This document shows, in pieces, positions 14,888 through 17,332 of a DNA stretch of 64,000 nt. The translations under genes and the position numbers were made by a program. The DNA comes from Roseofilum acuticapitatum BLCC-M154. Its GTDB lineage: Bacteria; Cyanobacteriota; Cyanobacteriia; Cyanobacteriales; Desertifilaceae. The stretch's first letter is position 1. The number at the start of each line of letters is the position of its first letter. The notes beneath the pieces were generated by a model, which was not told the DNA's origin, ran no database searches, and saw only the letters and a program-made list of their open reading frames with translations. Where the stretch lies: contig NZ_JAQOSP010000104.1 in assembly GCF_030068475.1 (NCBI RefSeq), positions 1 through 64,000 of the forward strand. Direction: 5' to 3'.

Positions 14888-14893
14888 TCCGGA
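14888..14893 (+). promoter_or_regulatory. DIF1-type TCCGGA element upstream of patX
   Basis: TCCGGA lies 46 bases before the ATG at 14940 and 55 before 14949. DIF1 (TCCGGA at about -35) is known from HetR-dependent developmental promoters in Anabaena and is reported within about 70 bases upstream of patX genes. If it occupies a -35 position, transcription would start near 14925, downstream of the ATG at 14910. That favours the later start codons. Confidence 0.65.
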
Positions 14894-14939
14894 TGAACCA
14901 GGGAAACCGATGAGAAGTAGAACAGTTACTTCGAGACAG

Positions 14940-15197
14940 ATGTTTCCCATGCGTACCAACAACTCCATTAAAATTAATCGTTTTCTGTTTTTGTCCTTGG
15001 TGATTGGTTCAATAGGTTGGGTTAACCTACAAACGAGTGCCAGTGTTGCTTCCCAGTCTAGTCTATCGGGTACTTATGCTGAAGATCATCGCGGTAGCGG
15101 ACGCTGTGAGAATGGTTGCCCTTCATCCCAATCCTTTGATAACACAGAAGTTGCTCGTCGAGGCAGTGGACGGATTGATTCTAGTCAATCCACGTAA
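14940..15197 (+). CDS. patX: PatX-like RGSGR peptide precursor
   Basis: A small exported peptide precursor (85 residues from 14940; ATGs at 14910 and 14949 are alternatives). It has the two features described for PatX. One is a hydrophobic N-terminus (NRFLFLSLVIGSIGWV, then a likely cleavage site near TSASVASQ). The other is RGSGR, the pentapeptide that binds HetR. Unusually, there are two RGSGR copies, at 15090-15104 (in EDHRGSGRCENGC) and 15159-15173 (in ARRGSGRID). PatX, PatS and HetN peptides inhibit HetR, the regulator of differentiation in filamentous cyanobacteria; PatX accompanies hetR even in strains without heterocysts. A TCCGGA element lies upstream and a perfect terminator downstream, so it is a single-gene unit. 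hetR is not in the window. Confidence 0.78.
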   Translation: MFPMRTNNSIKINRFLFLSLVIGSIGWVNLQTSASVASQSSLSGTYAEDHRGSGRCENGCPSSQSFDNTEVARRGSGRIDSSQST

Positions 15198-15272
15198 GGG
15201 GATAGTCAGGAGAGAGTGTTTTCTAGTCCTGCACCTTTAATATCATGATGATCGGCGTTAATTTCTATAAAT

Positions 15273-15300
15273 CCCCCATAATCGTTATGGGGGTATTTTT
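15273..15300 (+). terminator. intrinsic terminator of patX
   Basis: A perfect 9-bp stem CCCCCATAA / TTATGGGGG with a TCG loop, followed by TATTTTT. It lies 75 bases after the patX stop and directly abuts the first possible ATG (15301) of the next gene. Confidence 0.88.
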
Positions 15301-16607: not shown

Positions 16608-17177
16608 TTATTGTGTAGATTCACAATAGCGACGCTGTGCCCGTTCTTCTCTTGCGGTTTGAAAGTCTAACGTATTCAAATCGACAGGTTCTCGCATCTG
16701 CTCTGGAGTTTCCGGATCGCCTTGATAAATTGTCGCTCCATCCGGCATTTTAGCACCATTGAGTTTAATGTTATTATCGACGATCGATCCGGTAAAATCA
16801 GCTCCGGTTAAGTCCGTATTTCTTAAATCTGCACCCCGAAGATCGACCCCTTGCAGATTAGCATCCACAAAGTTAGACCATCTAAAGTTTCCACCTTGCA
16901 GATCGGCATTGCTCAAATCGGCACAAGTGAAGTAAGATCCTTCAAAGTTACTGTTACTTAAGTTGGCATTCATAAGGCGAGATTGCCGAAGTTGCGAGCC
17001 TTTAACCGTTCTGCCCGTAATGTTACTTAAATCTGCATCCGTAAGATCGCATCCTTGACAGGTGCGACCTCCGTTAAGCAGTTGGGAAACGTGATCGGGG
17101 TTAGCAGCGATCGCCACAGTTGTCAATCCGATACTCAGTCCGATCGCCATTCCTAAACTTTTTTTGAGCTTGATCAT
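16608..17177 (-). CDS. secreted pentapeptide-repeat protein
   Basis: About 189 residues from ATG 17177 (an ATG at 17204 would add nine). The signal peptide is MIKLKKSLGMAIGLSIGLTTVAIA, cleaved before ANPDHV. The mature part starts with LLNGGRTCQGCDLTDADLSN, a small two-Cys cap. Then come about 16 pentapeptide repeats A(D/N)LXX (MNANLSN, ADLSNADLQG, ANLQGVDLRGADLRNTDLTGADF), which form a right-handed beta-helix. The last 45 residues are charged and unrelated. It is probably periplasmic or lumenal. The biochemical role of such proteins is mostly unknown. Confidence 0.85.
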   Translation of the reverse strand: MIKLKKSLGMAIGLSIGLTTVAIAANPDHVSQLLNGGRTCQGCDLTDADLSNITGRTVKGSQLRQSRLMNANLSNSNFEGSYFTCADLSNADLQGGNFRWSNFVDANLQGVDLRGADLRNTDLTGADFTGSIVDNNIKLNGAKMPDGATIYQGDPETPEQMREPVDLNTLDFQTAREERAQRRYCESTQ

Positions 17178-17332
17178 AGTTACTGAAATCCTTGAAGAAA
17201 GCACAATAAAGAAATTGAGTATTGTTGATGATGATTATACATTCTTAATTGAGATTCTCAACTTAAAAAAACATTAATTTTCTCGGATTTAATGATAGAA
17301 TCATTTGGCCTGTAATCAGAAGCAAAGAATAT

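Follow-up and report, generated by a model that had tools for sequence, protein, structure and literature searches.

PatX, reportedly described by Elhai and Khudyakov in 2018, forms with the cell-fate regulator HetR what is described as an ancient pattern-forming pair. Roseofilum, the source of the DNA analyzed here, is a filamentous cyanobacterial genus known from coral disease. PatX is reported to be exported and matured by PatP into a hexapeptide inhibiting HetR, and PatS, which has 17 residues, to be processed to RGSGR or ERGSGR (PMC12756182). HetN also contains RGSGR and inhibits HetR, as reported in PMC12756182 and PMC7761841. The C-terminal carboxylate of PatS6 is described as lying by R223 of HetR, and changing HetR residues R223, E253, E254, D256, D270, or D278 as weakening or abolishing PatS6 binding (PMC4649674). 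The DIF1 promoters of patS, patX, and hetR are reported to depend on HetZ (PMC7377430).

An earlier note on the window, a stretch of 64,000 nucleotides (64 kb) from Roseofilum acuticapitatum BLCC-M154, had proposed a PatX-like gene with its own DIF1 element and terminator at positions 14888 to 15300, and the presence of these elements is confirmed. The open reading frame at 14949 to 15197 of the forward strand is a genuine PatX gene, variant through its tandem motif. It resembles published PatX in encoding a short exported-type protein with RG(S/T)GR, in the DIF1 element ~60 nt before the ATG, and in the presence of hetR in the genome, but differs in having two RGSGR motifs, a tail after the motif, a score below the cut-off of the family model, and no NtcA box upstream of DIF1, and in belonging to a genus in which R. 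reptotaenium is described without heterocysts (PMC4906641). PatS has the signal pentapeptide and a DIF1 promoter in common with patX of the window, but it is described as devoid of a Sec signal peptide (PMC12756182) and is far shorter. HetN is described as a different protein with the pentapeptide alone in common with PatX (PMC7761841). Points beyond the earlier note are the tandem motif, a start codon farther downstream, a second DIF1 peptide gene, and the location of a nif cluster on the contig of patX.

Coding sequence and signal motifs

The gene encodes 82 residues and ends at a stop codon in positions 15195 to 15197 (forward strand). The protein begins with MRTNNSIKI followed by the hydrophobic stretch NRFLFLSLVIGSIGWVNL; visual inspection and a run-length rule place this N terminus in the export type, as had been proposed, and it is conserved across Roseofilum. 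The single RGSGR previously named is present, but the sequence has two, the first at 15090 to 15104 in the context HRGSGR and the second at 15159 to 15173 in the context RRGSGR (both forward strand), the second beginning 69 nt past the first. A six-frame search of the 64-kb window yielded no other RG[ST]GR. Elsewhere in the genome, a search confined to CGN-coded arginine found four more in-frame RG[ST]GR sites, located in frames of 9 to 52 residues with no export-type start.

Conservation in Roseofilum

The sample comprised 147 genomes of the order, of which six, the genome of the window (G000) and five others, form genus g1, called Roseofilum here. A protein search with patX of the window returned E values of 7e-50 to 3e-20 in these six genomes, the best E value in the other genomes being 0.097. 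The closest named record was that of Roseofilum halophilum BLCC-M91, with 85% identity across the open reading frame; in the patX region, this record is identical to G127, and UBA2566 to G057. The six genomes and these two named records are referred to below as the eight Roseofilum loci.

Both RGSGR motifs and TCCGGA are kept in all six genomes, so that the lack of conservation which the earlier note had named as fatal to its reading was not encountered. Over the ten motif codons, 59 pairwise differences were synonymous and none nonsynonymous (27 and 0 for the first motif, 32 and 0 for the second), these differences being non-independent events because some of the six genomes are closely related. 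The linkers do change, pN being 0.30 for the one that precedes the first motif and 0.19 for the one that separates the two. An accidental conjunction of RGSGR and TCCGGA in a chance open reading frame could draw on the frequency of its parts, since TCCGGA is not rare, with 18 occurrences in the window, and since 386 of 200,000 shuffled 48-residue tails contained RG[ST]GR. The 18 occurrences correspond to an expected 0.0028 per 10-nt slot. Conservation of the open reading frame, of both motifs, and of the DIF1 spacing in all six genomes, with synonymous-only change of the motifs, rules out this reading, to which we assign a negligible probability.

Start codon, promoter, and terminator

As the earlier note had described, the DIF1 motif TCCGGA is present, at 14888 to 14893 on the forward strand; the distance of about 50 bases given there suits an intermediate ATG at 14940. 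The motif is identical in the six genomes. The program-made list of open reading frames places the start at 14910, giving 95 residues. The true start is most likely the ATG at 14949, which is preferred because it follows DIF1 by 61 nt in each of the eight Roseofilum loci and because 18 other PatX loci with an exact TCCGGA have 59 to 64 nt between that word and the ATG; locus L156 has one at 88 nt instead. On this spacing, the in-frame extension at 14910 to 14948 (forward strand) is likelier to be promoter and 5′ leader than coding sequence.

The spacing was further analyzed in a promoter set of 44 clusters, obtained from 81 rows by removing those with short upstream parts or more than 72% identity. 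TCC-N-GA occurred between −68 and −56 in 31 of the 44 clusters, versus 0.9% of shuffles, and in 0 to 1 of the 44 in other slots of equal width; the exact word was TCCGGA in 11 clusters and TCCTGA in 17. TCCTGA also precedes PatX in G004 and G110, one from each of the two genera that share the family with Roseofilum. The exact word and the family spacing to the ATG thus point to a DIF1 promoter with TCCGGA at the −35 position in the window. TAGAAC at 14918 to 14923 (forward strand), picked out by eye, is an uncertain candidate for a −10 or start-region element: TAGAA follows TCC[GT]GA by ~29 nt in several other PatX promoters and by 24 nt in patX of the window, and the element is altered in two Roseofilum congeners (both by eye).

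An NtcA box (GTA-N8-TAC) upstream of DIF1 was found in none of the eight Roseofilum loci, an absence that is new here, and in none of 65 other loci. Such a box starts 28 to 29 nt upstream of DIF1 in five of seven loci of family f33, the source of the four best matches of the NCBI heterocyst PatX model among the matches listed and presumably a family that forms heterocysts. In locus L050, the inverted repeat TCCGTATCAGG-N10-CCTGACACGGA occupies about −41 to −10 before patX, and like repeats are present in L059, L120, L131, L140, and L155. By eye, the repeat of these non-Roseofilum promoters stands between the −35 element and the ATG and shows paired changes in both arms; it is possibly an operator. 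In Roseofilum, leader inverted repeats were at chance level, and a pooled position test picked out no such position.

The perfect terminator of the earlier note was recovered at 15273 to 15293 on the forward strand, where a 9-bp stem resembling an intrinsic terminator and closed by the loop TCG (CCCCCATAA-TCG-TTATGGGGG) is followed by the T-run TATTTTT. A terminator scan found two candidates over 801 bases versus a mean of 1.0 in shuffles, a result that is weak taken alone.

PatX family and co-occurrence with HetR

Profile A1, built from 42 PatX proteins drawn from the same 147 genomes, with a few rows found through adjacency to hetR, retrieved patX of the window at an E value of 5.6e-14, a partly circular match because the profile includes this gene and three congener genes. 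The NCBIfam model NF047413 (heterocyst_PatX) gave 12.4 and 13.2 bits for the protein of the window, versus a curated cut-off of 30. The comparison with PatX families that had been proposed as a check succeeded with A1, subject to its circularity, but not with NF047413. PatX (A1, E ≤ 1e-3) and HetR (over cut-off) were both detected in 71 of the 147 genomes, PatX only in 2, HetR only in 14, and neither in 60, kinship being uncorrected. NF047413 reached its cut-off in 53 of the 147 genomes and, of the 71 genomes with both hetR and an A1 PatX, missed 20 or 21, including all six Roseofilum genomes. We read these misses as low sensitivity of the model rather than exclusion of Roseofilum PatX: the standard model undercounts PatX. 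A class of genomes with hetR and without patX (pattern 0110) is reported to make up 12.0% of 474 genomes (PMC12756182), and the undercount may explain part of that class.

HetR and HetZ

The earlier note had made its reading depend on a hetR gene in the genome. One was found, with an E value of 9.8e-40 for the HetR_C domain and of 3.6e-152 against a solved HetR, and each of the six Roseofilum genomes carries a single copy. The identity of the gene of the window as patX is thus supported by hetR together with the conserved RGSGR and TCCGGA. All six residues that matter for PatS6 binding (R223, E253, E254, D256, D270, and D278) are retained in HetR of the six genomes. Compared with solved HetR of the Anabaena/Fischerella type, HetR of G000 (L001) carries an insertion of four residues close to WADSPGEETP in the C-terminal domain, also present in the other five genomes, and a further two-residue insertion ahead of it. 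The 5.5 kb examined around this hetR gene contain no TCCGGA; the closest similar word is a TCCTGA 118 nt ahead of the hetR ATG.

A hetZ gene, looked for in G000 only, is present at L169:2489-3607, where NF037963 passes barely (550.3 bits versus a cut-off of 550). G000 contains two more HetZ relatives (627 bits versus a cut-off of 612 for NF037964; 573.7 versus 400 for NF037965). The gene directly after hetZ, encoding 400 residues, matched nothing, and PatU could not be named.

The gene could be a true PatX by descent whose main target in Roseofilum is not HetR, its peptides acting on another receptor or as a signal between cells and control of HetR being vestigial. In Leptolyngbya BL0902, for which patX, hetR, and double mutants are described, patX is reported to affect the transcriptome in a manner basically independent of hetR (PMC11298460). 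Two draft genomes with PatX only (G008 and G143) keep intact PatX genes with RGSGR, and no HetR was found in them by domain or full-length search. PatX-type open reading frames with variant motifs also exist: several A1 matches without RG[ST]GR carry RASGR, RGNGR, RGSSGR, RGGGR, RGEGR, RGCGR, or PGCGR, and RASGR occurs in four copies in an open reading frame beside hetR in G003. The very strong co-occurrence of PatX and HetR, the invariance of both RGSGR motifs in Roseofilum, and the retention of all six contact residues of HetR argue against another main target, which we regard as unlikely. Variant-motif open reading frames were noted at L215, L221, L213, L148, L152, L137, and L146, and five of these seven have TCC-N-GA 61 to 65 nt before the match.

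Precursors with several motifs

At least 24 of the 147 genomes encode PatX with two or more RG[ST]GR motifs after an export-type N terminus, with 2 to 17 copies; this number is a lower bound because it comes only from the PatX loci that were fetched. The precursors fall into six families (f1, f8, f11, f20, f28, and f32), and most PatX open reading frames read in the order have a single motif. Two copies are present in the six Roseofilum genomes, G110, G047, G088, and G105; three in G032, G074, G108, G136, G020, G069, and G087; four in G115 (L115), G055 (L116), and G122 (L210); five in G104 (L114); six in G121 (L113); eleven in G008 (L112); and seventeen in G096 (L160). In the family of Roseofilum, G004 has one motif, in a PatX adjoining hetR. 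Because G110 of the same family also has two copies, motif doubling may predate Roseofilum. Precursors of the yeast alpha-factor type likewise carry several copies of an active peptide behind an export signal, a comparison that implies no homology, PatX of the window having two copies and that of another genome up to 17. The tandem motif of Roseofilum PatX, as one of a set of multi-motif precursors, is new here, although it may already stand in Elhai and Khudyakov 2018. That article was outside the reach of our literature search, which found no paper on plural "RGSGR motifs" and none joining PatX and hetR with non-heterocystous Oscillatoriales.

The two motifs may be unequal, one RGSGR being released and the other acting as a spare or as a recognition site for processing. 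Their contexts differ: the preceding residue is H for the first motif in five of the six genomes (R in G093) and R for the second, while the following residue is C for the first and I for the second, each in five genomes. The prevalence of single motifs in the order points in the same direction. Against this stand the exclusively synonymous change in both copies and the occurrence of multi-motif precursors in six families. We consider such inequality rather doubtful, albeit compatible with two peptides being encoded by an inhibitor precursor of HetR.

A second DIF1 peptide gene

Outside the window, on another contig of the same genome, a second peptide gene was found by A1 (E = 6e-5) at C56:6434-6628 (L203:1435-1629; reverse strand). 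It encodes 65 residues with a hydrophobic N terminus and the C terminus PRGGTGRRRIMA, and TCCGGA stands 58 nt ahead of the ATG. The gene is present in all six Roseofilum genomes, with TCCGGA at 57 to 58 nt, and its end, GGTGRRRIMA, is invariant although encoded by five different DNA sequences. RG(S/T)GR is absent, the corresponding sequence being PRGGTGRRRIMA, or PSGGTGRRRIMA in G093. The DIF1 spacing of 57 to 58 nt, the size, the N terminus, and a profile-against-profile match to PatX with 74.9% probability suggest that the product may work like PatX. Binding to HetR is doubtful because the opening R of the pentapeptide is not invariant, being S in G093; the product may serve as a competitor or as another kind of signal, or may be no more than a derived PatX. 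The gene adjoins one with GAF and SpoIIE domains.

A widespread family was rejected, since profile A2 found the gene in only the six Roseofilum genomes of the 147. The three matches in the 141 other genomes had E values of 0.006 to 0.015; two were inside frames of 537 and 1,817 residues and one had three stops. In this sample of 147 genomes, the second gene is a genus-specific companion of patX that is new here, and a literature search on RGGTGR found no related paper.

The pattern TCCGGA-N20-31-TAGAA matched G000 at 42 sites, and the 32 sites inspected include both peptide genes. Among those inspected, the sites outside open frames of at least 90 residues were that of the second peptide gene, C147:62788, and C19:34385 only, patX being absent from this filtered list because DIF1 lies within its own open frame. 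The C147 and C19 sites do not precede exported-type small open reading frames, and neither recurs in the list of G034; a match in G093 (C2:302271) starts like the C19:34385 site. The reversed pattern gave 6 matches versus 42, an unfair control because it tests a different word. Among the inspected sites of G000, this pattern revealed no wider DIF1 regulon.

Nitrogen fixation genes and genomic neighborhood

NifH was detected in G000 with 451 bits (cut-off of 394), and nifE, nifK, nifD, nifU, and nifS also exceeded their cut-offs on the same contig, ~100 kb from patX, in a cluster at C104:112000-122400 (L117). The nifD frame of G000 matches with about 50 extra residues. NifH over the cut-off was found in G000, G057, and G076 and was not found in G034, G093, and G127, patX being kept in all three of the latter. 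Five Roseofilum metagenome-assembled genomes are reported to carry nifHDK (PMC5394123). A literature search on hetR in Roseofilum found nothing beyond "hetr" within a reference title in PMC4906641.

No link to patX emerged for its flanking genes, which encode an FAD-dependent oxidoreductase and a metallophosphoesterase. A pentapeptide-repeat protein with a signal-like N terminus is encoded 1.4 kb downstream of patX (16611 to 17204, reverse strand). HetL, also a member of the large pentapeptide-repeat family, is reported to shield HetR from PatX peptides (PMC7476756).

Proposed role of PatX in Roseofilum

Roseofilum patX quite probably encodes a DIF1-driven, exported precursor of two peptides that inhibit HetR within a negative feedback loop involving HetR and HetZ. 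This explanation, the best available, is supported by the gene, its two conserved motifs and DIF1 element, a HetR that keeps the six contact residues in every Roseofilum genome, HetZ in the case of G000, and the co-occurrence of PatX and HetR across the order; export, processing, HetR binding, and HetZ control would follow by analogy with other cyanobacteria. The DIF1 promoter would produce a short patX mRNA, and the 82-residue precursor would leave the cytoplasm via its N-terminal signal. Cleavage outside the cytoplasm would then release small peptides with HRGSGR and RRGSGR, two per precursor. Because the C-terminal carboxylate sits by R223, release should require cleavage directly behind the R that ends either motif. 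The loop would be closed by HetR and HetZ raising patX expression through DIF1. Several points weigh against this explanation: the NF047413 score far below cut-off; PatX that may act without HetR, as reported for Leptolyngbya (PMC11298460); PatX without detectable HetR in G008 and G143, and 14 hetR genomes without an A1 match at E ≤ 1e-3; no TCCGGA in 5.5 kb around hetR of G000; and the need for cutting both motifs right past the last R.

We infer, as the earlier note did, that PatX controls cell fate or filament behavior in Roseofilum. In filaments devoid of heterocysts, the loop probably selects the responding cells, for instance in how necridia or break points are spaced or in a nitrogen response, its phenotype being our guess. 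Khudyakov and colleagues are reported to conjecture nonrandom fragmentation through necridia (PMC7761841). Tentatively, in filamentous cyanobacteria the precursor of a HetR-type inhibitor with an evolving copy number of its motif (2 in Roseofilum, up to 17 elsewhere) might act as a knob for the dose of lateral inhibition, to which Roseofilum might add a two-signal code (RGSGR and GGTGR) without heterocysts. A definition of PatX by RG(S/T)GR hides the second DIF1 peptide gene of this genus. With nif-bearing and nif-lacking members in one genus, an invariant double-motif PatX, and intact HetR and HetZ, Roseofilum offers a clean test case for the role of PatX and HetR without heterocysts.
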